Positions 24,485-55,676 of a stretch of DNA of 64,000 nucleotides are shown here, in pieces. The first letter of the stretch is position 1. Each line of letters begins with the position of its first letter. The stretch is from assembly GCF_025860405.1 (NCBI RefSeq), contig NZ_CP063785.1:3224001-3288000 (forward strand), given 5' to 3'. The notes beneath the pieces are model-generated. The model was not told where the DNA came from, made no database searches, and saw only the letters and a program-made list of their open reading frames with translations. The translations under genes and the position numbers were made by a program. The stretch is from Tolypothrix sp. PCC 7712 (GTDB taxonomy: Bacteria; Cyanobacteriota; Cyanobacteriia; Cyanobacteriales; Nostocaceae).

Positions 24485-24536
24485 ACTCTCTTAATTACGA
24501 ATTACGAATTACGAATTACGAATTACGAATTACAAA
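24485..24536. repeat. ACGAATT heptamer repeats
   Basis: Six or seven ACGAATT units precede and touch the stop codon of the large WD40 gene on the minus strand. Similar heptamers occur near 4360-4388 and 40980-41010. Confidence 0.85.
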
Positions 24537-27500
24537 TTATCACACAGATGCCTATCACCCTCACTCAAATTCACATTCGGATTCTTTAAATAAAGTTGCA
24601 ACCACCCGCAACCCCGCACCAACAACTCATCTAAATTCTCCACAGGCCACAACCGCGCTGTTTTGTCTAATGATGCGGTGGCGATGGTTTTGCCGTCCGG
24701 GCTGAAACTCACACTATTGACACTTTCCTGATGCCCTTTGAATTCTTGCAGGAGTTGCCCTTGCAGGTTCCACAACCGCGCTGTTTTGTCCGAAGATGCG
24801 GTGGCGATGGTTTTGCCGTCCGGGCTGAAACTCACACTATTGACACTTTCCTGATGCCCTTTGAATTCTTGCAGGAGTTGCCCTTGCAGGTTCCACAACC
24901 GCGCTGTTTTGTCCGAAGATGCGGTGGCGATGGTTTTGCCGTCCGGGCTGAAACTCACACCCCAGACATAGCCCTGATGCCCTGTGAATTCTTGCAACAG
25001 TTGCCCTTGCAGGTTCCACAACCGCGCTGTTTTGTCTAATGATGCGGTGGCGATGGTTTTGCCATCCGGGCTGAAACTCACACCCCAGACACTGTCCTGA
25101 TGCCCTGTGAATTCTTGCAACAGTTGCCCTTGCAGGTTCCACAACCGCGCTGTATTGTCCGAAGATGCGGTGGCGATGGTTTTGCTGTCCGGGCTGAAAC
25201 TCACACCCCAGACACTGTCCTGATGCCCTGTGAATTCTTGCAGGAGTTGCCCTTGCAGGTTCCACAACCGCGCTGTATTGTCCGAAGATGCGGTGGCGAT
25301 GGTTTTGCTGTCCGGGCTGAAACTCACACCCCAGACACTGGACTTATGCCCTGTGAATTCTTGCAGGAGTTGCCCTTGCAGGTTCCACAACCGCGCTGTA
25401 TTGTCCGAAGATGCGGTGGCGATGGTTTTGCTGTCCGGGCTGAAACTCACACCCCAGACACTGGACTTATGCCCTGTGAATTCTTGCAGGAGTTGCCCTT
25501 GCAGGTTCCACAACCGCGCTGTTTTGTCATCTGATGTGGTGGCGATGGTTTTGCCGTCCGGGCTGAAACTCACACCCCTGACACCGTCCTGATGCCCTTT
25601 GAATTCTTGTAGGTTCCACAACCGCGCTGTATTGTCCGAAGATGCGGTGGCGATGGTTTTGCCGTCCGGGCTAAAACTCACACTAATGACACTGTCCTGA
25701 TGCCCTTTGAATTCTTGCAGGAGTTGCCCTTGCAGGTTCCACAACCGCGCTGTTTTGTCCGAAGATGCGGTGGCGATGGTTTTGCCGTCCGGGCTGAAAC
25801 TCACACCCCTGACACTGGACTGATGCCCTGTGAATTCTTGCAGGAGTTGCCCTTGCAGGTTCCACAACCGCGCTGTTTTGTCATCTGATGTGGTGGCGAT
25901 GGTTTTGCCGTCCGGGCTGAAACTCACACCCCAGACACTGGACTGATGCCCTTTGAATTCTTGCAACAGTTGCCCTTGCAGGTTCCACAACCGCGCTGTT
26001 TTGTCATCTGATGCGGTGGCGATGGTTTTGCCGTCCGGGCTGAAACTCACACCCCTGACACCGTCCTGATGCCCTGTGAATTCTTGCAACAGTTGCCCTT
26101 GCAGGTTCCACAACCGCGCTGTATTGTCCGAAGATGCGGTGGCGATGGTTTTGCCGTCCGGGCTGAAACTCACACTTCTGACCCAGTACTGATGCCCTTT
26201 GAATTCTTGTAACAGTTGCCCTTGCAGGTTCCACAACCGCGCTGTATTGTCCGAAGATGCGGAGGCGATGGTTTTGCCGTCCGGGCTGAAACTCACACTT
26301 CTGACCCAGTACTGATGCCCTTTGAATTCTTGTAACAGTTGCCCTTGCAGGTTCCACAACCGCGCTGTATTGTCCGAAGATGCGGTGGCGATGGTTTTGC
26401 CGTCCGGGCTGAAACTCACACTTAAGACACTGGACTGATGCCCTTGAAACTGGTTGCGTTCTTTAATATTGCTCAGAATGCTATGCAAAGCATAAATCGG
26501 GCTAAAAGCTGGGTATTTTTCTAGCTGGCGACCATCTTTAACAATATTTTTCAAATCCTTACCACTGTGCATTGCCGACACCAGCGATTCTAACTCGGTA
26601 TATTCAAATTGCCTTAAGGCATTAGCCCCCGCCCGTTCTAAGTTTGTTCCTTGCAATGCTTCTTTTTGTGCGACTTCTGCGGCAATTTTGGCGCTTTGTG
26701 CTTGTCTCAGGCTTGCTTGTGCTTTGCTTAAATTCTCATCAGCCTGTCTAGCTTTTAATTCTGCTTTTTTTTGTCGTATGTCTGCCAGTTTTACTTTTTC
26801 TTCCGCAGCTTTTACATTTACATTAGCCGTTTTAATTCTCTCTTCTGCTTGTGCGTTTCTCTGTTGTAATGTGGCTGCTTCTTGGTTTACCTTATCTAAC
26901 TCTGCTTTAGCGGTTAATAAGTTTTTATTTGCTTGTTGCGTCGCCTTTTTTGCTGCTGCTGATTCGGCTTCTGCCACTTTTTTATTATTTAGCTCTTTTT
27001 GATAATTTTTTTCTAAATCTTGCTTTTTATCTTCTAAGCCTTTAGCGATTTTCTGAATCTCTCCCAGTCGCTTTTCTGTCTCCAGCTTTTGTAAATTTAC
27101 ATTTTCTAGATTAGTATTCGCTTCTGCCATTTTTGCAAGTGAATCTTGCTTTTCTTTGTTAGCAATATTTGCCTCGCTAATTTTATTAATTGCATACAAA
27201 GCAGCTAAACCCGCCGCTAATAATAAAACTATTGCCAAACCAGAACTCAAAGCTAATCTATTCCGCCCTTGCTTAATTTTCTGTTTCGCTTCTCTGTTAG
27301 CATCGGCTAATATTTTCTTTGCTGCTTGTTCCCGTTCTAAATTTTCTTCTGCTTGCAAACGCTGCTCACGTTCCCTCGCCAATTCTTCTAATAACTCATT
27401 TCCCTGTTGCTGGCGAATCAAATCAACTAAATAATCATGCACCAATTGATAACGTTCCGCCGGAGACTCTTTTAATATCAACACCAAACCAGATTTAACA

Positions 27501-30172
27501 AAAATCTCCAACACCAAATCTAATTCCTCGGCTGATGTTGCTAAATCTGCCGCTAACTCAGCCTTAGTTTTTAACGGGCGTGTGCCATTTTCATCAGTCA
27601 ATAAATATAAAATCAATCTCGCAGTGCTTTCATTAACAGCACCACAATCTTTAATTACTTCATCTAAAAATCGCTCAACTAATTTCTCTTTCGTCCCCGC
27701 CTGACGATACCTTTCTAAACTTGTAATTTTCTCAGTTTGCAATTGCGCCCCCACAATTTGCAACTCAATCGGGCGAACTTCCCCAATATCCCCCGCCAAA
27801 TCTTTCACCAATTCATCAATCAAATTAGGCTCTAAATAAAAATGTGTCCTCTCCGTCAAACTCTGAATGACAGTCTTCGCATCATCCCTTGAAAAATTAC
27901 CCAAGTGATAACGAATATTTTTATCAAGAATATTATTATTAATAACGGTTAAATCAAATATCCGGTCTAACTCTAATAAATAATGTAAATAATCTTCCCG
28001 CAATGACAAAATCACCTTAACAAAAGGTATATCTAAGCAAACGCGCAGAAATTCATAAAAAGGTCGCCTTTGAGCTTGGTCTTTATAAACAAAGAAAAAC
28101 TCTTCAAATTGGTCAAATATTAAAACCGTTAATAAATTCCGTTCTGCATTATTCCGCAACTGCGCTAATATCTCAGCCGCCGAATTAAGAGATATTCCCC
28201 CCAACCTCTCAACACTTTCTACTAAAATCCGTCCCAACATCCCCACCCAATCTGTATAACTTCGCAACAAAATTGGTAAAGCATCTCGCTCACCAATAGG
28301 TTTTTCTTGCAAAGCTGGGATTAATCCCCCTTGTAAAATTGAACTTTTCCCTACTCCCGACTGTCCATGAATTACAGTTAATTTATGTTCAGTTCCGCTA
28401 ACTCTTTCCCGTAACCGCCGCACATCTTGAACTCGGCTAGAAACTGCAATTTCTTGAGCAATTGTTTCTGTATTTTCTGCTTGTATCAGTGCTGGGTTAA
28501 TTGCCTGTCGCTGCGGGTTAAGATAAGATGCACCCACAAAAGCCCGAAACCCATATTGCTGTTCAATTTGTAATCGCTCTTGCTTAAGATGAAAAGCATC
28601 TAAATATCTAGCTTGCTCAAAATAGAGTAAGCGCAATTTCTCTAAAATAGATATATATAATTGCGGGTTGTACTGCGGTTTACTTTCTAATTTCGCTAAC
28701 TCCAAGCTACTAATTGCAGCTGCAATATCACCTAACCCCTGCTGCGAACTAGCTAATATAAACCGATATAACCCCCCCTCATGAGATTGCAAATTTGCTT
28801 CATTCGCCAACAATCTTACACTTGTCATTGCGAACGTAACGAAGTGGAGTGAAGCAATCTCCTCCAATTGATTAGCTTCGTTTACGTTGGGTTGGGGTTG
28901 CTTCGCTTCGTTTGCATTGGGTTGAGATTGCTGCGCTGCGCTCGCAATGACAGCAGAGGATTGATTAGCTTCGTTTACAGTGGGTTGAGATTGCTGCGCT
29001 GCGATCGCAATGACAGGCGGGGATTGCTCCGCATTACTCGCCATGACATTTAAGATTTCCCTCCAGCTAGCTAATACTTCCAGCGCTTGTTCTGCAAATT
29101 GCTGCGCCTCATCCCAATGCGAATTTTGTAACGCCACCTCAGCCAAAAAGCCATAATCTTGAGCTAATTGTCGCGCCGTACCATAATTTTCATGCAGAAT
29201 TAAAGCTTGTTCCGCCAGCCCTTGTAAATCACGCCAGGCTTGTAAACTTCGCAGCACCTCACCCAATTTACTAATATATTCAGCAATTAAATCCGGCTTT
29301 TGTGCTGACTCAAAAATCACAATCGCCTGCTGAAAATAATTTCTCGCTTCTTGCCAATAGCCTTGATTTTCTACCTGCTCAATATTCGCTTTCCGTTGAT
29401 ATGCTAAAGCAACATGAGCTAATAATATCCCATAGCGTTCTAAATTCTGACTACCTCGCCAAAAACCCAAGCTTTCTTGATAATGTCCTAAAGCCCCATC
29501 TATCCGATCATATAAATAATCATCAAAACCCAAAACAAATTCTATACTAGCTATAATTTCCGGAGCTAAAAGTTGCTCACGGCTTTGCAAATCTTGACGC
29601 GCCGTTGTTAATTCCCAACAAATTTGCAGATTCGGTTTAACATCACCTGCAAATATCTCATCAGTCTTTTCTCGCATAAATTCAATTAAATTATGCGTAC
29701 TATTATTAAAAGCAATAGTCGTCGCCCAATTATCCAAATCCGCCGCCAAGCGAATCATCTTTTGCAGCACTTGGTCATTAATCCACAATAAAATCGGAAA
29801 GGGAAAATTCTTTCTAAACTCCTCCCGCACCTGATTAGCCGCAGTCAGTACCGTATCAATATCCTTAACCGACTCCAAACCAAAAATCATCAAAGCTGGT
29901 GGCTGTTCATCTCCCAACTCTGTCTTAATAGCACTGTAAAGCGTTTTCACCGATGCAGGTAAAGTGATTTCCCTAATTTTCACCGTTGATAATTCATGGA
30001 TACGTTGCACCATCTGCTGACGCAAAGCCCCATAATTACAGCGCAATAATATCAGCGAAAATTCACCTTGAGAAAGCGTAATTGCTCTTACCAGAGTTTG
30101 CAATGAACTTTCATTATCAGCACCTAAATTTTCTGCTTCTTCATGAGTCACTTTGCCGTGCCCCAAATTCAA
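24530..30172 (-). CDS. STAND NTPase with N-terminal helical repeats, membrane helix, coiled coil and 15 WD40 repeats
   Basis: The 1,880-residue protein is a STAND-class signalling ATPase (nSTAND1-like). In order: residues about 15-150 look like an NTPase-fold domain without a Walker A; about 165-560 are TPR-like helices, interrupted at 376-449 by a repeat-derived insertion; the P-loop GQSGVGKSS is at 603-611 and the Walker B-like LIFDQFEEFF has D687; a winged-helix-like region ends near 910; a membrane helix (LALSSGLAIVLLLAAGLAALYAI) lies near 972-995; a long coiled coil spans 996-1180; fifteen WD40 repeats fill 1243-1846. Such proteins sense a ligand on the propeller and oligomerise, and some act in phage defence. 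No effector domain is recognised. The TTG start is uncertain; no ATG lies upstream in frame, and a GTG lies 20 bases further in. Confidence 0.85.
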   Translation of the reverse strand: MNLGHGKVTHEEAENLGADNESSLQTLVRAITLSQGEFSLILLRCNYGALRQQMVQRIHELSTVKIREITLPASVKTLYSAIKTELGDEQPPALMIFGLESVKDIDTVLTAANQVREEFRKNFPFPILLWINDQVLQKMIRLAADLDNWATTIAFNNSTHNLIEFMREKTDEIFAGDVKPNLQICWELTTARQDLQSREQLLAPEIIASIEFVLGFDDYLYDRIDGALGHYQESLGFWRGSQNLERYGILLAHVALAYQRKANIEQVENQGYWQEARNYFQQAIVIFESAQKPDLIAEYISKLGEVLRSLQAWRDLQGLAEQALILHENYGTARQLAQDYGFLAEVALQNSHWDEAQQFAEQALEVLASWREILNVMASNAEQSPPVIAIAAQQSQPTVNEANQSSAVIASAAQQSQPNANEAKQPQPNVNEANQLEEIASLHFVTFAMTSVRLLANEANLQSHEGGLYRFILASSQQGLGDIAAAISSLELAKLESKPQYNPQLYISILEKLRLLYFEQARYLDAFHLKQERLQIEQQYGFRAFVGASYLNPQRQAINPALIQAENTETIAQEIAVSSRVQDVRRLRERVSGTEHKLTVIHGQSGVGKSSILQGGLIPALQEKPIGERDALPILLRSYTDWVGMLGRILVESVERLGGISLNSAAEILAQLRNNAERNLLTVLIFDQFEEFFFVYKDQAQRRPFYEFLRVCLDIPFVKVILSLREDYLHYLLELDRIFDLTVINNNILDKNIRYHLGNFSRDDAKTVIQSLTERTHFYLEPNLIDELVKDLAGDIGEVRPIELQIVGAQLQTEKITSLERYRQAGTKEKLVERFLDEVIKDCGAVNESTARLILYLLTDENGTRPLKTKAELAADLATSAEELDLVLEIFVKSGLVLILKESPAERYQLVHDYLVDLIRQQQGNELLEELAREREQRLQAEENLEREQAAKKILADANREAKQKIKQGRNRLALSSGLAIVLLLAAGLAALYAINKISEANIANKEKQDSLAKMAEANTNLENVNLQKLETEKRLGEIQKIAKGLEDKKQDLEKNYQKELNNKKVAEAESAAAKKATQQANKNLLTAKAELDKVNQEAATLQQRNAQAEERIKTANVNVKAAEEKVKLADIRQKKAELKARQADENLSKAQASLRQAQSAKIAAEVAQKEALQGTNLERAGANALRQFEYTELESLVSAMHSGKDLKNIVKDGRQLEKYPAFSPIYALHSILSNIKERNQFQGHQSSVLSVSFSPDGKTIATASSDNTARLWNLQGQLLQEFKGHQYWVRSVSFSPDGKTIASASSDNTARLWNLQGQLLQEFKGHQYWVRSVSFSPDGKTIATASSDNTARLWNLQGQLLQEFTGHQDGVRGVSFSPDGKTIATASDDKTARLWNLQGQLLQEFKGHQSSVWGVSFSPDGKTIATTSDDKTARLWNLQGQLLQEFTGHQSSVRGVSFSPDGKTIATASSDKTARLWNLQGQLLQEFKGHQDSVISVSFSPDGKTIATASSDNTARLWNLQEFKGHQDGVRGVSFSPDGKTIATTSDDKTARLWNLQGQLLQEFTGHKSSVWGVSFSPDSKTIATASSDNTARLWNLQGQLLQEFTGHKSSVWGVSFSPDSKTIATASSDNTARLWNLQGQLLQEFTGHQDSVWGVSFSPDSKTIATASSDNTARLWNLQGQLLQEFTGHQDSVWGVSFSPDGKTIATASLDKTARLWNLQGQLLQEFTGHQGYVWGVSFSPDGKTIATASSDKTARLWNLQGQLLQEFKGHQESVNSVSFSPDGKTIATASSDKTARLWNLQGQLLQEFKGHQESVNSVSFSPDGKTIATASLDKTARLWPVENLDELLVRGCGWLQLYLKNPNVNLSEGDRHLCDNL
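24640..26450 (-). repeat. Fifteen near-identical 123-bp WD40-coding repeats
   Basis: Each unit encodes about 41 residues ending in TARLWNLQGQLLQEF. Identity between units is very high at DNA level, including silent positions. Variation concentrates in the two residues after GH(Q/K) (SS, YW, DG, DS, GY, ES) and the positions after V (L, R, W, I, N then S/G). One unit (about 25610) lacks 15 bp, giving NLQEF in place of NLQGQLLQEF. Confidence 0.92.
28826..29045 (-). repeat. In-frame 'GCAATGACA/GAAGCAATCTC' repeat inside the STAND gene
   Basis: This stretch reads like the intergenic 'cattgcgagcgcagcgaagcaatctc' repeat, in several joined copies separated by TTCGTTTACG/TTCGTTTGCA spacers. It encodes residues about 376-449, rich in AAQQSQPNANEA-type sequence, between two helical-repeat segments. 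The frame is kept. Confidence 0.75.
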
Positions 30173-40969: not shown

Positions 40970-41166
40970 AACAGAGTAATTTGTAATTCGTAATTCGTAA
41001 TTCGTAATTACAAAATTGTTGCTAGGGATAACCCAGAACCCTGACTTTTTGAAAAATTCGGGGTTTTAAATCTTACTAAAGTACGAGATTTTCTACAGTT
41101 TGCTTGAATCGAGGCGTGAAAATAGTTTAGGCTGAAATTGTCTACCTATTTTTTTTAAGGTGAACA

Positions 41167-48212: not shown

Positions 48213-48566
48213 ATGCTTATGAAATCTAAACTCTTAAGAATGCTCACAGTATTTTTATTAAGCTTAGTAGTGCTTTCTCCAGCTTTAGTGGCAATAATTA
48301 TAGTTTGGCAGGAGCATCTAAATTTTCAGGCAACACAAAACCTAGTGTATGCTGTTTCCGATGTTCAGCAATTCACTAATCACGGTGTCACTATGGCTAT
48401 TTCTATATTATTATGGCTGATAATTTTGGCTCCTATTGGCCTTTGTTTAGGAATTACTTTGCATAAGGGCTATGTTGCTTATCGTGCTGCTGTGCTACAA
48501 AGAAAAATCCAAATGTTGGAAAAAATGTGGCAGCAAAATACTTATCCAGAGGAAATTATTTTATGA
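48213..48566 (+). CDS. Small membrane protein leading the cox2 operon
   Basis: The 117-residue protein has two membrane helices (about 9-29, LTVFLLSLVVLSPALVAIIIVWQ, and about 57-80, MAISILLWLIILAPIGLCLGITL) and a cytoplasmic C-terminal helix rich in Lys/Gln (AAVLQRKIQMLEKMWQQN). It starts at ATG 48213 or at ATG 48219 in the same frame. Its TGA overlaps the ATG of coxB as ATGA, so translation is probably coupled. A hypothetical gene in this place is, as I recall, also present before coxB2 in Anabaena. An assembly or stability role for the oxidase is inference from position. Confidence 0.7.
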   Translation: MLMKSKLLRMLTVFLLSLVVLSPALVAIIIVWQEHLNFQATQNLVYAVSDVQQFTNHGVTMAISILLWLIILAPIGLCLGITLHKGYVAYRAAVLQRKIQMLEKMWQQNTYPEEIIL

Positions 48567-49408
48567 AACAAATTCCCCTTGGGATTATAACTTTAATTGC
48601 AGGTATCTTAATTACGCTAATTAGCTTGTGGGTAGGACAAAATAATCATCTTTTGCCTGTTCAAGCTTCCGCACAAGCGCCTTTAGTAGATGATTTCTTT
48701 AATGTGATGGTAGCCATTGGGACTGCTTTATTTTTAGTAGTACAAGGGGCCATCCTGTTTTCTGTAATTAAGTTTCGTCGGCGGCCTGGAGATAATGGCG
48801 ATGGCCTGCCAATTGAAGGTAGCTTTCCCCTAGAAATTTTGTGGACTATTATCCCCGGAATCATTGTAATTGGATTGGGGGTTTACAGCGTAGATGTTTA
48901 CACCGAGATGGGCGGGATGGATGAGATTGGTCATCACGGTATGACCCACGAGTCAATGATGGCACAACCCGAATCAAACCCCATTGGTATTGGTTCGACA
49001 CCTGCAACCGAAGGTAAACCACCATCTTTAGTAGTTAACGTCACCGGAATGCAATATGCTTGGCTGTTCAACTATCCCGATAGCGATGTGAATACAGGCG
49101 AACTGCACGTTCCCATCGGTCAAGATGTATTACTGAATATCTCTGCAAATGATGTAATTCACTCATTTTGGGTGCCTCAGTTTCGGTTGAAGCAAGATGC
49201 AATTCCTGGTCAACCTACACAGTTGCGGTTCACCGCCACCAAAACAGGAACCTATCCCATAGTTTGCGCCGAACTGTGTGGTGGCTATCACGGTAGTATG
49301 CGTACTTCTGTAGTTGTCCACACCCCAGAAGATTACGATCGCTGGTTGGCAGAAAATCGCGTAGCCCAACAGCCAGAAATGGATCAAACCGTTGCCGTCA
49401 ATCCATAA
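48563..49408 (+). CDS. coxB: Cytochrome c oxidase subunit II (Cox2-type)
   Basis: The protein is 281 residues from the ATG at 48563, which overlaps the upstream TGA; the frame extends upstream to 48527 without support. Two membrane helices (about 5-22 and 49-70, with a further hydrophobic stretch at 90-112) precede the periplasmic cupredoxin domain. The CuA site is intact: H in NDVIHSFWVPQ, then CAELCGGYHGSM supplying two Cys, His and Met, with E in the middle. A Met/His-rich loop (MGGMDEIGHHGMTHESMM) is inserted before the cupredoxin strands, unusual and possibly copper-binding. It accepts electrons from cytochrome c or plastocyanin and passes them to subunit I. Confidence 0.92.
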   Translation: MKQIPLGIITLIAGILITLISLWVGQNNHLLPVQASAQAPLVDDFFNVMVAIGTALFLVVQGAILFSVIKFRRRPGDNGDGLPIEGSFPLEILWTIIPGIIVIGLGVYSVDVYTEMGGMDEIGHHGMTHESMMAQPESNPIGIGSTPATEGKPPSLVVNVTGMQYAWLFNYPDSDVNTGELHVPIGQDVLLNISANDVIHSFWVPQFRLKQDAIPGQPTQLRFTATKTGTYPIVCAELCGGYHGSMRTSVVVHTPEDYDRWLAENRVAQQPEMDQTVAVNP

Positions 49409-49501
49409 GCGTTTTTCCAGATAATACCAACTTCGGATAGCTAGTCTTGTTTTATTCAAGATTTTCAATCCAAAATCTCAAATCCAAAATCCAAAATTGG
49501 T

Positions 49502-51160
49502 ATGACACAATTAGAAACTCCCAAATCTACAACAGTCGTTACCCACCACGAAGTACCCGAAAAGTGGAAATGGTACGACTATTTCACCTTTAATATCGAT
49601 CACAAAGTCATTGGCATTCAATATCTGGTAACCGCCTTTGTGTTTTACCTGATTGGTGGATTAATGGCGATGGCGATCCGCATCGAATTAAATACACCAG
49701 ATGCAGATTTTCTCGATCCCAACCTTTACAACGCCTTCATGACCAACCACGGCACATTAATGATTTTTATGTGGATTGTGCCGGCGGCGATTGGGGGATT
49801 TGGTAACTTCCTGATTCCCTTGATGGTGGGGGCGCGAGATATGGCGTTTCCCAAATTGAATGCGATCGCATTTTGGTTAAATCCGCCGGCTGGGGCCTTA
49901 CTTTTGGGTAGCTTCTTCTTTGGTGGTTCTCAAAGTGGCTGGACTGCTTACCCACCATTGAGTTTAATCACAGCTAACACTGCCCAATCAATGTGGATTT
50001 TAGCGATCGTGTTGGTGGGGACTTCCTCAATTTTGGGGGCGTTAAACTTTGTCGTCACCATCTTGAAGATGAAAGTCCCCAGTATGCAATGGACGCAAAT
50101 GCCCTTATTCTGCTGGGCAATTTTAGCCACTTCAGTTTTAGCCCTGCTGTCTACCCCAGTTTTAGCAGCCGGATTAGTGCTGTTATTATTTGATATCAAC
50201 TTTGGCACTTCTTTCTTTAAGCCGGATGCTGGCGGAAATGTGGTGCTTTATCAGCATTTATTTTGGTTTTATTCCCACCCTGCCGTATATTTAATGATTT
50301 TGCCCATCTTCGGCATTATGTCGGAGGTGATTCCCGTTCACGCCCGTAAACCGATATTTGGCTATAAAGCGATCGCTTATTCTAGCTTGGCAATCTGCAT
50401 TATTGGTTTATTTGTTTGGGTACACCATATGTTTACCAGTGGTACACCCCCTTGGATGCGGATGTTCTTTACCATTTCTACCCTGATTGTTGCTGTTCCC
50501 ACTGGCGTGAAGATTTTTGGTTGGGTAGCAACTCTGTGGGGCGGTAAAATCCGCTTTACCAGTGCCATGTTATTTGCCATTGGCTTGCTATCAATGTTTG
50601 TCGTTGGCGGATTAGGCGGCGTAACCTTGGGTACAGCGCCTTTTGATATCCATGTTCACGATACATATTATGTAGTTGGTCACTTCCACTACGTATTATT
50701 TGGCGGTTCTGTATTTGGTATCTATGCGGGAATTTACCATTGGTTCCCCAAGATGACTGGCAGAATGATGAATGAAACCTGGGGAAGAGTACATTTTGCC
50801 CTGACTTTTGTTGGTACTCACCTCACTTTCCTACCCATGCACCAACTAGGGTTGCAAGGAATGCCGCGCCGTGTCGCCATGTATGACCCTCAATTTGCAG
50901 GAATTAATCATATTTGTACTATTGGCGCAATAATTCTCGGCATATCTGTAATCCCGTTCTTCTTCAACGCCATTTGGAGTTGGATGAATGGCCCCAAAGC
51001 GTCAGATAACCCTTGGGAAGCGCTGACTTTAGAATGGACAACCACTTCACCCCCAGCGATTGAAAACTGGGAAGTACTACCAGTTGTGACTCACGGCCCC
51101 TACGATTATGGGCGCAGTGATGAAGGAAAACCCACAGCGCAAACGGCTGCCTCGGTTTAA
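49502..51160 (+). CDS. coxA: Cytochrome c oxidase subunit I (Cox2-type, A2 heme-copper oxidase)
   Basis: The 552-residue protein has twelve membrane helices and all metal ligands: H83 (TNHGTLMIF) and H396 for low-spin heme, H394 for the high-spin heme, and H259, H308 and H309 for CuB, with Y263 as the cross-linked tyrosine (WFYSHPAVYLMILP). K337 of the K channel is present (PTGVKIFGW). The usual D-channel glutamate before the CuB helix is replaced by the Y-S pair (FYSHPAVY), which defines the A2 subgroup. The enzyme reduces O2 to water and pumps protons. In heterocysts a Cox2 oxidase helps keep oxygen low for nitrogenase. It starts with ATG 93 bp after coxB. Confidence 0.95.
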   Translation: MTQLETPKSTTVVTHHEVPEKWKWYDYFTFNIDHKVIGIQYLVTAFVFYLIGGLMAMAIRIELNTPDADFLDPNLYNAFMTNHGTLMIFMWIVPAAIGGFGNFLIPLMVGARDMAFPKLNAIAFWLNPPAGALLLGSFFFGGSQSGWTAYPPLSLITANTAQSMWILAIVLVGTSSILGALNFVVTILKMKVPSMQWTQMPLFCWAILATSVLALLSTPVLAAGLVLLLFDINFGTSFFKPDAGGNVVLYQHLFWFYSHPAVYLMILPIFGIMSEVIPVHARKPIFGYKAIAYSSLAICIIGLFVWVHHMFTSGTPPWMRMFFTISTLIVAVPTGVKIFGWVATLWGGKIRFTSAMLFAIGLLSMFVVGGLGGVTLGTAPFDIHVHDTYYVVGHFHYVLFGGSVFGIYAGIYHWFPKMTGRMMNETWGRVHFALTFVGTHLTFLPMHQLGLQGMPRRVAMYDPQFAGINHICTIGAIILGISVIPFFFNAIWSWMNGPKASDNPWEALTLEWTTTSPPAIENWEVLPVVTHGPYDYGRSDEGKPTAQTAASV

Positions 51161-51323
51161 CGTTAGTGGATGCGTTACGCGATCGCTAACCCATCCTACG
51201 TGAACTCTGCGTTCTCTGTGCCTCTGTGGTTTTATATGATTTTTAACCGCAGAAGACACAGAGAGAAGAAGAAGGCTGAAATTCAAGCCAATTATTTCTC
51301 CTTAAATTTAGAAATTGGAATTT

Positions 51324-51935
51324 ATGCAGGATTCAACTTTGAACGCCCCAGAAATAGCGTTGGGTTCAGCCGCTTCCCATGAAGAACATCAAGACTTGCG
51401 GGTGTTCGGGCTGCTGACGTTTCTGGTTTCTGAGTCTTTGATGTTTGGTGGTTTTTTTGCCACTTACCTAATTTTGCGTGGTGGTGCCGCAGTTTGGCCG
51501 CCGGAAGGGACAGAGGTAGAATTACTCATACCCACAATTAACACCATCATCCTAGTTTCTAGTAGCTTTGTGATCCACTTAGGTGATACAGCGATTAAGA
51601 AAAATCATATCGCGGGGATGCGCTTATGGTATGGCATCACAGCGTTGATGGGCGCGATTTTCCTGGGAGGTCAGGTATATGAGTATCTGACTTTGGGATA
51701 TGGGTTAACTACCAACGTATTTTCTAATTGCTTTTACTTGATGACAGGTTTTCACGGTTTACACGTATTTATAGGGTTGCTGTTAATACTTGGTGTACTG
51801 TGGCGATCGCGCCGTGTCGGTCATTACTCTGCTACGAAACATACTGGCATTGAAATGGCAGAAATCTACTGGCACTTTGTAGATATCATTTGGATCATTC
51901 TATTTACGCTGTTGTATATTCTGAGCGTATTTTAG
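51324..51935 (+). CDS. coxC: Cytochrome c oxidase subunit III (Cox2-type)
   Basis: The protein is 203 residues from the ATG at 51324; a TTG at 51315 is in frame but less likely, and GGA precedes the ATG. Five membrane helices are visible. Markers: RVFGLLTFLVSESLMFGGFFATYLILRGGAAVWPPEG, TGFHGLHVFIGLLLIL and the C-terminal MAEIYWHFVDIIWIILFTLLYIL with the conserved W-H-F-V-D-x-x-W. Subunit III stabilises the oxidase and has no metal site. It is separated from coxA by 163 bp carrying palindromic repeats (GGATGCGTTACGCGATCGC; AACCGCAGAAGACACAGAG), so transcription may or may not be continuous. Confidence 0.93.
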   Translation: MQDSTLNAPEIALGSAASHEEHQDLRVFGLLTFLVSESLMFGGFFATYLILRGGAAVWPPEGTEVELLIPTINTIILVSSSFVIHLGDTAIKKNHIAGMRLWYGITALMGAIFLGGQVYEYLTLGYGLTTNVFSNCFYLMTGFHGLHVFIGLLLILGVLWRSRRVGHYSATKHTGIEMAEIYWHFVDIIWIILFTLLYILSVF

Positions 51936-52025
51936 AAGTTACAAGAAATGCAAAGCTGAAAGCACAAGTAGCCACAATTAAACTCAACAGCAAGCAGCAA
52001 TCAGAGTTTATTTATAAATATTTTT

Positions 52026-52163
52026 GTAGCGTATGTTAGGCGCTTATTTTTAAGATGATTTGTCACGAAATAACTATCCTAGCGCCTAACGCACCATCCG
52101 TAAGGCGGTGCATTACTTAACTTTAGTGAGATTTAAATCCCCGACTTTTTCAAAAAGTCGGGG
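52026..52163. terminator. Repeat unit and strong hairpin between convergent coxC and helicase genes
   Basis: At 52026-52110 lies a relative of the 30.2-kb unit (GTATGTTAGGCGC..GCGCCTAACGCACC), an inverted pair. At 52139-52163 CCCCGACTTTTT and its inverted copy form a 12-bp stem with a one-base loop. Related CCCGAATTTTT hairpins occur at about 41030 and 55590. The hairpin could terminate transcription from both sides, although no T-run follows. Confidence 0.5.
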
Positions 52164-52186
52164 ATCTGGGTAAAAATGCAGTAGTA

Positions 52187-55114
52187 CTAAATTTCAGGCT
52201 TTTTCTGCTCTTTCAGTATCTTCGCTTTTTGGAAATCTAACTGGCTTAATATTTGGTAAACTCTACCTCGCTCATAATATATCTCTGCAGATTGTGGATT
52301 AATCATTAAAGCTTGATTGTAATCCTCTATCGCAGAAAGATATTGTTTGAGTTTTATCTTAGCCCTTCCTCGGCGCACATAAGCTTCAGTATATTGAGAA
52401 TTTAACTGTAAGACTTGTGTGTAATCAGCTAATGCTTCTTGAAAATTTTGTTGTTCAAAGTTTTGTTTTCCAGATGCCATTAAACTTTCAATAGCTTTTT
52501 GACAAGTTTCCGTGGCTTTATCAACTATTCCTGCTAATTGATATTGTTCATATGCTTGTAACCATTGTTTTTGTTTTTCAAAATCCTTAGCTTGATATTC
52601 AGCTTTTTTAGCTATATTATTACTGTTCATCCAGCAACGTTTTTCATCATCAAATCGTCTCAATTGATGCCATTGCTGGGCCGCATCTTCCCAATGTTCT
52701 TTTACTTCCAGTAGTCGAATTTCACAGATTTGCTTATTTTCTAAATTACCTGCTTGTTGCCAACAGTTTGCTGCTGCTTCCCACTGTGCATCTTTCTCAA
52801 ATAATTCAGCGGCTTGCTTGTATCTTCCAATAACTTCCCATTCTCGAGCCGCTTGTGTAAATTGACCTTTTTCTTCTAATAAATGAATATCACAGATTTG
52901 TTTTTGTGCAAAATTACCTGCTTTTCCCCAATAATGTGCTGCTGCTTCCCATTTTTGAACACGCTGGAAAAGTTTGGCAGCAGTCTCCCAATTCTCTAAT
53001 TCGGCAAAAATTACCGCAGCTTCTTGATATTTACCTTCTTTTTGTAGTTGTTTAGCTCTGGCTTGCAAATATTTTAATCTATCACCTGATTTATCAAAAC
53101 ATTCAACAGCTTGTAGATAAAACTCAGCTTTTAAGTAATATTCTCCACGTTGCTGCCAATCTTGAACTTGTTCGGCAGAACGATTTTCTGCTATTGTTTG
53201 CATATCCTGAATTTTGTAGTAATTGATCAGTTCTGGTTGCTGCCAAAATTCAGAAATTTTTTCTTCCCAAACATTTAAAATTCGACGGGCACGAGTTACA
53301 GCTACATAAAGTAAATTCAACTCTAATAATAATCCTGGTATTTCATTCTCAGGCAATCGAGAAGGTTTTTGTAAAACTCTGTACCATAAATTCTGGTGAC
53401 ATTCAAAAAAATTTACTAAAAATACAGTATCAAACTCTAAACCTTTAGCTTCCTCAATTGTAAACACTAAAGAAGACTTAAAAACTGCGCGCAGATGTTC
53501 TCTTTCTGGATTGGTTCTAACTAAAATAGCATCACCTGGATGAAGAGTTTGCAGTATAGATTCCAAATGTTGATTAGAAGCAGCAACTATCCGAGTTAGT
53601 TCACCATAATTGCTAATAGCCTGAGTGTTTTTATAGGGATAAGATGTATTTAATAATCGATAACGTATTTGCAATATTTGGTTAGCTAAATTAACTAATG
53701 TGCCAACACTGCGAAAGTTGAATGTGAATGTTTCTTGCAGAGGTTGTTTTCGTCCATTTTGAAAAAATCTTGTTGTCAAGTCTTCCCAGCGAAAACCACT
53801 AGGACTAATCATTTGGTGTAAATCACCAGCAAAAAATAAATTCCCTGTCGGTGCAACGAGTCGCATGAGAAATTCTAACTGTAATTCAGTAAAATCTTGC
53901 ACTTCATCACAGACAATTAAGCGATAATCTTTCAAATTGTTTTCAATGACAACTTCTAAGGCTTTCCGAGTCAAATCTATATCATCAAATCGACCATTTT
54001 CTTTAATCTTTCTTTGATACCAATAAGTAAATGCCGAGTAAAAAGTAGCACGTTTACTCAGTTGGACAATACTTGAACGTTTAGCACCTAAATGTTCATA
54101 CTCAGATTGGCTTAAATAATCTGCATCCAAAGCCAGTTGACTACCTTTGATAATACTACGAATTTCATTCCAAACTAAAGCAGTAGGATATTTTTGACGT
54201 TCTTTATGTAAATAAATTTTTTCAAAAATATGAAAATTTACTTCATCTTCAGGTGAATAACTCTGTCCAGTTAGCTCAAGAATTTCTAAACATAAGTCTC
54301 TTAGGGTTTTAAACTGAAACAGAGATGTAACTTCAGGATTATTAGTACCTAATAATTGGTAAAACTGTTCTTTTGCATTATTGACTAATAAAGGATTGTA
54401 AGCAACATAAAGCCTTTTAGAAGATTGTGGGTACAGTCGGTAATCATTCAAAAGACGATATATAGCTACTGTAGTTTTGCCAGTCCCCGCACTACCTTTG
54501 AGAAGTATATCCTCGTTTATTGTAGATAATGCGTATTCTTCAGGTGTAAGTTTGAATTGTAAATCTACATCCTGGTTAATAATGGCTCGTTGCCAATCTT
54601 CGGGTGAGTCTATAATTAACCACTGTATATTACCTAAGAGTTCATCTTTATTATCTGATAACTTTGTTAAATCTAAATCTTCATCTTCTAATTGGTCAAA
54701 CTCTAGTTGAGTGCGTTCAGTTTGCGGCAGTTCATTAAAATCTGATTCTATATTACCTAGAGTATTAATTATCTCTCCATCTAACCAAGTTGCATCTGGG
54801 GTTCTTTCTCTAGCTGCTTTTCTAGGAACATCATCATGATCCAAACAAATATCCTGAATGGCGATGTAAACTTCCGCCTCTCCTGTTTCAGGCTGTCTTG
54901 ATTTGTCGTAAGTAAAAATTAGACGACTAGCACGATCAATCCTTGCTTCCCAAACTCTTTTATTAATACCTTTCAGCCGTTTAACTCTCAATCCACCATT
55001 AAACTGTCGCCGTCTTAGCTGATTAATGCAGTCCCAAGTTTTTTGCCGAACATTACTGCTAATATTTTTACGCAAAAACTTAACAACATCTGGATGTAGG
55101 ACGATTGAGAGCAT
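52187..55114 (-). CDS. RelE-like domain fused to UvrD-type SF1 helicase and C-terminal helical repeats
   Basis: The 975-residue protein has three parts. Residues about 1-95 look like a RelE/ParE toxin fold (IVLHPDVVKFLRKN, GGLRVKRLKG, VWEARIDRASRLIFTYD, EVYIAIQDICLDHD). Residues about 185-625 are a complete superfamily 1A helicase: Q motif KLTPEEYAL (188-196), Walker A GSAGTGKTT (207-215), motif II DEVQD (403-407), motif III FAGDLHQM, motif IV NFRS, motif V EAKGLEFD (555-562), motif VI YVAVTRARR (603-611). Residues about 660-975 are helical repeats (W-x-x-A-A-x-x-W) ending in two TPRs. It recalls eukaryotic TRANK1-type helicases. Likely an ATP-driven nucleic-acid enzyme, possibly in defence. 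ATG start, 144 bp after an XRE gene. Confidence 0.82.
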   Translation of the reverse strand: MLSIVLHPDVVKFLRKNISSNVRQKTWDCINQLRRRQFNGGLRVKRLKGINKRVWEARIDRASRLIFTYDKSRQPETGEAEVYIAIQDICLDHDDVPRKAARERTPDATWLDGEIINTLGNIESDFNELPQTERTQLEFDQLEDEDLDLTKLSDNKDELLGNIQWLIIDSPEDWQRAIINQDVDLQFKLTPEEYALSTINEDILLKGSAGTGKTTVAIYRLLNDYRLYPQSSKRLYVAYNPLLVNNAKEQFYQLLGTNNPEVTSLFQFKTLRDLCLEILELTGQSYSPEDEVNFHIFEKIYLHKERQKYPTALVWNEIRSIIKGSQLALDADYLSQSEYEHLGAKRSSIVQLSKRATFYSAFTYWYQRKIKENGRFDDIDLTRKALEVVIENNLKDYRLIVCDEVQDFTELQLEFLMRLVAPTGNLFFAGDLHQMISPSGFRWEDLTTRFFQNGRKQPLQETFTFNFRSVGTLVNLANQILQIRYRLLNTSYPYKNTQAISNYGELTRIVAASNQHLESILQTLHPGDAILVRTNPEREHLRAVFKSSLVFTIEEAKGLEFDTVFLVNFFECHQNLWYRVLQKPSRLPENEIPGLLLELNLLYVAVTRARRILNVWEEKISEFWQQPELINYYKIQDMQTIAENRSAEQVQDWQQRGEYYLKAEFYLQAVECFDKSGDRLKYLQARAKQLQKEGKYQEAAVIFAELENWETAAKLFQRVQKWEAAAHYWGKAGNFAQKQICDIHLLEEKGQFTQAAREWEVIGRYKQAAELFEKDAQWEAAANCWQQAGNLENKQICEIRLLEVKEHWEDAAQQWHQLRRFDDEKRCWMNSNNIAKKAEYQAKDFEKQKQWLQAYEQYQLAGIVDKATETCQKAIESLMASGKQNFEQQNFQEALADYTQVLQLNSQYTEAYVRRGRAKIKLKQYLSAIEDYNQALMINPQSAEIYYERGRVYQILSQLDFQKAKILKEQKKPEI

Positions 55115-55258
55115 AATTTTAATTTTGTCAGCTTCGATAAATTAGTCAAAAAAATACATAGATAAATAATTAATATTTGTCTAACAGTGATTAATTCTAA
55201 ATTGCCAAGTAAAATTTGCGATCGCCCATACCCAAACAGAGCAAATATAGTTGACTTT

Positions 55259-55486
55259 CTAGAAATAATAAAATTGTTCATCCATTGCTTTTAACATTCT
55301 CTCAATCTTCTCTATCGCCAAAGGTGATGGTTGAGAGCGTTTATTTTCCCAACGGTTAATTGTTGAATATGTAACACCTAGAGAGGCTGCAAACTGTTCT
55401 TGCGTTAGCCCAGCCACAAGCCGCAGCCTCCGGATAAGCTGTCCTACCTCTGGCTGATTTCTCACCAAGGGTTTTTTGATATTCAT
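55259..55486 (-). CDS. XRE-family helix-turn-helix regulator
   Basis: The 75-residue protein is little more than one Cro/XRE domain: VGQLIRRLRLVAGLTQEQFAASLGVTYSTINRWENKRSQPS (about 13-53), then AIEKIERMLKAM and an aromatic end (QFYYF). Helix 2 is LTQEQFAASLG and helix 3 (recognition) VTYSTINRWEN. It precedes the RelE-helicase fusion on the same strand, an arrangement like HigA/RelB-type antitoxin regulators beside RelE/HigB toxins, so it may control that gene or neutralise its N-terminal domain. That link is inference; it could be an independent repressor. Confidence 0.85.
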   Translation of the reverse strand: MNIKKPLVRNQPEVGQLIRRLRLVAGLTQEQFAASLGVTYSTINRWENKRSQPSPLAIEKIERMLKAMDEQFYYF

Positions 55487-55676
55487 TTACCTTTTCAATC
55501 CGCTATCTCAAGTAGCTAATGCTATATTATTTGCTACATCCTAACTATGGTTAAATGCCGCAATCATCAGTAATCACTCGTAATTAAAAATTGTTTCCCT
55601 GAACCCCGAATTTTTTAAAAATTCGGGAATCTAAGTTGTACTAGTCTTTTAGCGAAAATTATCAGGGAGATTTATT

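Follow-up and report, generated by a model that had tools for sequence, protein, structure and literature searches.

A 64,000-nucleotide stretch of the 10.1-Mb genome of the cyanobacterium Tolypothrix sp. PCC 7712 (contig NZ_CP063785.1, positions 3,224,001 to 3,288,000; hereafter the window) encodes on its minus strand, at 52187-55114, a 975-residue protein in which a domain with a predicted RelE-type fold is fused to a UvrD-type helicase and a helical-repeat tail. A gene for a 75-residue XRE regulator lies 144 bp upstream; both open reading frames are as the original prediction had described them. We favour, tentatively and at close to even chances, the reading that the fusion acts, as one protein, in nucleic-acid surveillance or defence, probably against viruses or plasmids; it would be an enzyme in which a RelE-type ribonuclease would be coupled in cis to a helicase and which would be under XRE control in Nostoc. 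This reading is based on the fold of the N-terminal domain (N-domain), its invariant residues, the selection acting on it, the defence-type contexts of the XRE family, the published relative ArmD and the patchy spread of the fusion.

The RelE-like character of the amino terminus, proposed in the original prediction, was borne out for residues 1-97 by comparison of a predicted structure and by profile matches to YoeB. An AlphaFold model of residues 1-110, built on a 26-sequence alignment, has a mean predicted local distance difference test (pLDDT) score of 83.9 and the order b-a-a-b-b-b-b-a. Toxin entries of RelE, YoeB, YafQ and Helicobacter take the first 28 ranks in Foldseek (a pair of them titled hypothetical protein), with a best E of 5.7e-4 and just two rows at E 0.001 or less. 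VIA, which is a second look at the Foldseek rows, returned toxin entries or the Cami1 ribonuclease throughout its best 50 rows (Z 10.7-7.2), the rows from rank 36 falling under Z 8, below which a match possibly reflects a common arrangement only. The 26-sequence profile matches four YoeB-type PDB chains at E 0.0019-0.0047; the name under which one of these chains was deposited is "antitoxin RelB". Pfam detects YoeB_toxin at E 0.0024 with the whole protein and 2.6e-4 with the N-terminal 106 residues, ParE_like at 0.0025 and HigB-like at 0.059, all below the curated cut-offs (21.3-21.4 bits against 27 for YoeB_toxin); one homologue, L109, passes the ParE_like cut-off (24.7 against 24.4), and HigB-like and YoeB_toxin are matched by 14 and 13 of the 26 aligned N-domains, respectively (E up to 1; best 2.6e-5). 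The nearest free-standing relatives, from seven loci read among 58 related genomes, are proteins of 90-94 residues with the C-terminus H-D-(D/E/Q)-V-Y, each encoded after a gene of 71-77 codons, presumably the antitoxin, in what look like ordinary cyanobacterial toxin-antitoxin pairs. The N-domain profile aligns with these seven toxins over 92 columns (hhalign 98.2%, E 5.1e-14). Given the RelE fold and the fact that the nearest free-standing relatives are toxins, the N-domain does derive from the toxin world.

The conservation pattern speaks for a kept active site. G41, R58, R64, F67 and H93 are invariant in the 26-sequence alignment, and D94 nearly so. All 38 domains aligned, ArmD and the gammaproteobacterial forms among them, have R64 and H93, and R58 and F67 each occur in 34, counts that are valid only for domains with a visible pattern, for which the 38 were selected, because the undecided N-termini (L016-L022, L030, L032, L071, L074, L081 and L083) lie outside them. 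When a set of 30 sequences was scanned with the N-domain profile, the undecided N-termini gave no match for L016 and L018, E 1.3 for L022, 0.043 for L030 and 0.0028 for L032; the N-terminal region of L016 has no Pfam match either. L080 is within the 38, yet tagged "other-N" in the helicase tree discussed below, the labels of which we assigned ourselves. The catalytic set of YoeB consists of E46, R65, H83 and Y84. In the profile alignment, R58 and R64 fall on arginines of the YoeB-type chains, and K45 on a glutamate of the two best chains, which we take to be E46, the general base of YoeB (E. coli numbering). VIA superposes model residues 2-94 on residues 1-84 of YoeB 2a6q, and from these range ends, as opposed to a residue-level alignment, H93-D94 would presumably sit at H83-Y84. 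In four congener pairs, the ratio of nonsynonymous to synonymous substitution rates is 0.06-0.10 in the N-domain and 0.04-0.15 in the helicase; it rises to 0.19-0.21 in the tail and to 0.26-0.62 in the linker, so the N-domain is under purifying selection and among the most constrained segments of the protein. The constancy of R64 and H93 in a domain that varies at most other positions fits an active site better than a scaffold, and we infer that the N-domain may well be a ribonuclease.

For the remainder of the protein, too, the original prediction holds: it named a superfamily 1A helicase and a helical-repeat tail. Pfam finds UvrD-helicase (1.1e-14) and UvrD_C (2.1e-7); Walker A (K213), Walker B (D403), the C-terminal helicase motifs and the fold are those of UvrD/Rep superfamily 1A, and Foldseek places the full-protein model nearest to UvrD, PcrA and Rep structures. 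The tail matches TPR_11 (1.1e-10, best at 916-954) and is helical throughout residues 650-970 of the model. Model confidence in the linker drops below pLDDT 50 at 101-109, 111-126 and 136-155. We considered the linker as the remnant of a built-in antitoxin and rejected the idea; it bears no likeness to the presumed antitoxins of the free-standing toxins (hhalign probability 0.2).

The regulator upstream, correctly predicted as an XRE gene preceding the helicase (HTH_3 at 1.4e-13), belongs to a family with other partners as well. Both genes are retained in four congeners of the window genome. Paralogues with 64-76% identity precede a HerA-like ATPase and a NurA-like protein in genomes G001 and G005 (the G001 pair alone was scanned; NurA scored just under the Pfam cut-off, 20.7 against 21, with no PADLOC hit). 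In G006 such a paralogue stands before an AAA_15 ATPase, and in G003 before a UvrD-PD-(D/E)XK protein accompanied by a DNA methylase. A 53%-identical paralogue precedes a type IIG enzyme in G001, and for a 69%-identical one in the same genome no defence-type neighbour was visible. A supposed helicase remnant beside an orphan XRE gene of G001 (tblastn E 0.37, in a frame full of stops) was disbelieved. The XRE genes of different operons have an upstream element in common. The pattern ATRTAKCANRTRAYATAKCA occurs ten times in seven of eight genomes, each time 33-39 bp before an XRE homologue, and its reverse not at all in the eight genomes, a result that demonstrates specificity and not discovery, because the pattern was drawn from those same loci; the type IIG copy has a diverged element outside the pattern. 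We read the XRE gene and its putative operator as a regulatory cassette that would move between operons of mostly defence type. Such a reusable cassette could serve to find further defence genes in Nostoc.

The fusion is widespread, though patchily so. A species-genome scan yielded 58 loci. N-domain and helicase occur together in seven of 58 relatives (window genome counted) and in five of eight congeners; the nearest named loci, from Nostoc linckia, Calothrix membranacea and Nostoc carneum, are 87-88% identical over 655 residues. Within the phylum, 12 of 386 genomes match at E 1e-40, five of them from the N-domain onward; three more matches align only from residue 126-138, and there a diverged N-domain with H-D-D or H-T-T was read. 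Among the loci of the species-genome scan, the N-domain was read in cyanobacteria, in two Spirochaetota, in Fusobacteriota, in Bacillota and in one Heimdallarchaeota draft genome, the last on a 10-kb contig that is possibly misbinned. In Gammaproteobacteria, 13 of 369 genomes match, with 14 loci; 13 of these were readable, and in each the N-terminal pattern (H-A-Y, H-D-Y or similar) is visible by eye; the seven that were scanned with the N-domain hidden Markov model (HMM) all match it at E 2e-8 to 1e-5 (set of 30). Of 5426 E. coli genomes, 111 have a match to an ankyrin-tailed relative, 95 of them covering 80% of the gene or more; 102 places are chromosomal and 10 on plasmids. Plasmids of Crinalium, Euhalothece and Cetobacterium carry fusions as well. 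The relative found on many large Shigella plasmids and on some E. coli plasmids is full-length and includes the N-domain (about 47% to the gammaproteobacterial query); most listed rows annotate it as UvrD-helicase or ankyrin protein. Another cyanobacterial helicase group (L016, L018-L022) has a different N-terminal region of about 95 residues, close to the end of which lies an R-G motif; this region may be a RelE-like form that has diverged further. In a genome of the same family (L017; G030:C29), the fusion copy is broken by stops within 73 matching residues, and therefore the gene seems dispensable there; a CobW-type gene lies nearby, similar to one found upstream at the Richelia sinica locus L040 (both by eye).

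No match was obtained in 296 Actinomycetes genomes at E 1e-30, with about four candidates scored per genome and no positive control, so that this empty result carries no weight as evidence of absence. Of 255 pattern matches in IMG/VR (A1 query), none was confirmed as a viral fusion, and a phage collection searched with the gammaproteobacterial query gave no viral copy; these searches lend no support to a viral origin. In a helicase tree of 35 rows, those labelled as RelE-bearing cluster (three changes, where shuffling gives a mean of 8.9), and the window protein falls among cyanobacteria and a spirochaete. The fusion may have had one origin or several.

The original prediction took the gene pair for a toxin-antitoxin module in which the helicase would carry the RelE toxin and the XRE protein would be its antitoxin, and this we now consider very improbable. 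It is true that all five carriers in the window's genus have the XRE gene before the fusion, and that antitoxins of the HigA type belong to the XRE proteins. The linkage is nevertheless missing outside the genus: an XRE-family HMM, specific to its own XRE family, so that other antitoxins were sought only by eye, found a match at three of 37 named fusion loci, all in the window's genus, and at none of the 34 others, 29 of which include at least 1 kb upstream. This count leaves aside 21 of the 58 loci: L060 (17 stops), L062 (fragment), seven with no clear N-domain (L067, L074, L078, L082, L084, L085, L088), the uncertain L071, L080, L081 and L083, and L086, L087 and L089-L094, which were not read. 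Nor was the family found at the 14 gammaproteobacterial loci (short flanks), at E. coli L121 or at the plasmid loci L033-L036 (best E 0.076); on the Euhalothece plasmid a helix-turn-helix (HTH) gene of another type, and at L121 another annotated HTH gene, lies two genes upstream of the fusion. XRE homologues are present in eight of eight congeners, three of which have no helicase, and paralogues precede other operons. Moreover, free toxins of the same type follow a different small protein, and the XRE HMM recognises none of the seven presumed antitoxins (E no better than 0.05). The XRE gene is thus absent beside most homologues, the very finding by which the original prediction had proposed to be judged, and because of this missing linkage and the paralogues before other operons we reject the toxin-antitoxin reading.

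A more serious rival, the main one though somewhat unlikely, is that the RelE-fold domain has ceased to be a nuclease and serves to dock onto nucleic acid or ribosomes, within a housekeeping helicase whose task would be to clear stalled complexes or to repair DNA, the XRE gene being a local regulator acquired in Nostoc. Contexts that look like housekeeping by eye favour this rival and weigh against a defence enzyme: a gene with a SurE-like motif lies in the analysed stretch of 10 of the 37 named loci (those of Okeania, Trichodesmium and their kin), an indication that the chromosomal site has been conserved, and xseB- and ispA-like genes follow the fusion in the Fusobacteriaceae loci L069 and L070. 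The lysine that the fusion has where YoeB presumably has its general base counts in the same direction. The rival is also favoured in that no antitoxin was found, by the XRE-family HMM at the 34 loci outside the genus or, for other families, by eye. Further points weigh against a defence enzyme: that the window neighbourhood comprises cox genes, a solute-binding protein and a CRP-type regulator, and no defence island; that the cyanobacterial fusions do not have the terminal tyrosine of the free toxins; that Pfam detects no RelE/ParE family in seven of ten further N-terminal regions of homologues, and in the N-terminus of ArmD only at E 0.067; that ArmD stands apart in the helicase tree, with L080, NERD-UvrD and UvrD-PD-(D/E)XK rows, on long branches; and that the 38 domains counted above were chosen for their pattern. 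Against mere docking, on the other hand, stand R64 and H93, found in every one of the 38 aligned domains although the sequence differs at most other positions, and the patchy and plasmid-borne forms. A different possibility, which we regard as quite unlikely, is that the domain acts on DNA or on a DNA-bound enzyme, as ParE does on gyrase, within a restriction-like, DNA-targeting defence enzyme. The ParE_like matches (that of L109 above the cut-off), the usual movement of UvrD motors on DNA and the methylase that ARMADA also carries (PMC12458937) would agree with this; the closest named sequences and structures are mostly the ribonucleases YoeB, RelE and YafQ and not ParE, and the arginine and histidine of the ribonuclease type are kept.

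Returning to the surveillance and defence enzyme that we favour, we suggest the following model. A RelE-fold ribonuclease domain would be held in cis by the UvrD-type motor and the TPR tail; as the rest of the protein would restrain it, a separate antitoxin would not be needed. The XRE protein would keep both its own promoter and the helicase gene repressed, and an invader or stress would lift this repression. The motor might then load onto foreign or abnormal single strands, assisted by the tail, and its ATP-driven movement could free or position the RelE domain, which would cut nearby RNA, possibly mRNA on ribosomes. Part of the original prediction thus lives on, since it had suggested that sensing of damaged or foreign nucleic acid is perhaps coupled to RNA cleavage, which is the mechanism that we would prefer. 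A defence role is what the combined evidence suggests. A bolder version, which we deem unlikely, would have these proteins form a cross-phylum class of one-gene immune enzymes, whose own helicase and repeat tail silence a RelE-type ribonuclease as a built-in antitoxin and release it only when the motor runs on invader nucleic acid, and which in Nostoc are placed under a swappable XRE-operator cassette common to several unrelated defence operons.

Table 1. Features of the gene pair in the window, with the evidence for each.
Feature	Position	Strand	Evidence
RelE/YoeB-fold N-terminal domain (predicted), residues 1-97	54824..55114	-	Model, Foldseek, VIA, profile to YoeB
R58 codon	54941-54943	-	Conserved in N-domain alignment
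R64 codon	54923-54925	-	Conserved in N-domain alignment
H93 codon	54836-54838	-	Conserved in N-domain alignment
Linker, residues 98-164	54623..54823	-	Low model confidence; fastest-evolving segment
UvrD-type superfamily 1 helicase core, residues 165-645	53180..54622	-	Pfam, model, Foldseek, motif positions
Helical-repeat tail and stop codon, residues 646-975	52187..53179	-	Pfam TPR families; helical in model
TPR repeats near C-terminus, residues about 885-960	52235-52462	-	Pfam TPR families
XRE/HTH_3 regulator, 75 residues	55259..55486	-	Pfam HTH_3 1.4e-13
Operator-like element ATGTAGCAAATAATATAGCA, 33 bp upstream of XRE start	55520..55539	-	Common to XRE cassettes of different operons

Two perfect hairpins, CCCGA(C/A)TTTTTNAAAAA(G/T)TCGGG, flank the XRE-helicase pair (window 52140-52162 and 55605-55627), and a third copy with one mismatch lies at 41040-41062 (chance expectation 0.00); they may be terminators or members of a repeat family. 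The fusion adjoins coxC at the end of a cytochrome oxidase operon (window 48213-52187), and in two other cyanobacterial genomes (L014, L041) it also lies beside coxC (identified by eye), in another relative orientation; the coxC neighbourhood is perhaps an insertion hot spot. At five Bacillota loci (L073, L075, L076, L077, L079), a gene for a coiled-coil-like protein of 223-396 residues directly follows the fusion; just upstream at L076 a gene matches Dynamin_N (7.8e-28), and the gene preceding it reads alike. In Cetobacterium (L035, L036, L072), a 611-residue protein is encoded directly before the fusion, and the L035 copy matches sigma-70 region 4. On the Euhalothece plasmid (L034:9942-11834), a NERD-UvrD protein, a second nuclease-helicase, follows the fusion. 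Elsewhere in the window, a 1880-codon open reading frame (24530-30172) matches PADLOC HEAT-ARM_XIII at 9.5e-34.

Among known proteins, TRANK1, a helicase with TPR/ankyrin repeats, may be likened to the window protein in its domain composition. GajB of Gabija and the DRT-associated RTasHel share the UvrD-type helicase (PADLOC RTasHel 4.2e-23, GajB 1.8e-12), the best-matching stretches lying within the helicase; neither GajA nor a reverse transcriptase was found among ten neighbours tested, so that the locus does not qualify as Gabija. YoeB, RelE, YafQ and the cyanobacterial RelE-type toxins share with the N-domain the predicted fold and the positions of R64 and H93, but they are free-standing and encoded after a small presumed antitoxin gene.

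The published relative is ArmD of ARMADA type II, a RelE-like/UvrD fusion in an anti-phage system (PMC12458937, a bioRxiv preprint of 2025), the publication of which overtakes the statement in the original prediction that no established system has this composition. The open-licence main texts, titles and abstract openings within the scope of our search describe the fusion only in that preprint, and the passages considered from PMC5512222, PMC3710099 and PMC13192584 do not describe it. According to the preprint, all four ARMADA genes are required for defence, K266A in the Walker A motif of ArmD abolishes protection and D454N lowers it (PMC12458937). We located ArmD in E. coli ATCC 8739 (L122, WP_000218176.1), where Walker A lysine 266 and Walker B aspartate 454 agree with the NCTC 12900 protein of the preprint, and the A3 profile detects it at E 9.1e-6 (set of 30). 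Two points temper the parallel: sections 5-6 of PMC12458937 contain no mutant of the RelE domain, and ARMADA cells remained viable upon infection, an observation at odds with a simple suicide toxin in that system. ArmD and the window protein both join a UvrD-type helicase to a RelE-like domain at the N-terminus, in which the R...R...HD pattern is seen; in the alignments, R62, R68 and H88 of ArmD correspond to R58, R64 and H93. It differs in its length of 704 residues with no repeat family found, in its four-gene operon with ArmA, ArmB and ArmC, and in its GajB-like helicase, which sits on another branch of the tree than the window group. We rejected the window gene as an ARMADA member, its flanks encoding COX3 and a solute-binding protein; PADLOC found no ArmA-, ArmB- or ArmC-type match among eight large open reading frames of the window.

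A further comparison is with E. coli WP_001545777.1 and its gammaproteobacterial relatives, which are standalone, carry the RelE-like N-domain and belong to the same helicase group as the window protein. They are annotated as hypothetical or ankyrin proteins, and they differ in the ankyrin tail of the E. coli form, in H-A-Y, H-D-Y or similar in place of H-D-D, and in that the window's XRE family was not found in the analysed stretches (L107-L121). The architecture is therefore not unique, ArmD having come earlier; what is new is a standalone, TPR-tailed and widespread form with a conserved candidate active site. The joining of RelE and UvrD, reported for one E. coli defence system, extends far wider, to five bacterial phyla and one Heimdallarchaeota draft genome. 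It also bears on toxin-fold domains without an antitoxin, a class partly omitted in Gerdes 2025 (PMC11980606), in which many multidomain BECR proteins were set aside when an antitoxin was not found or members were too few.

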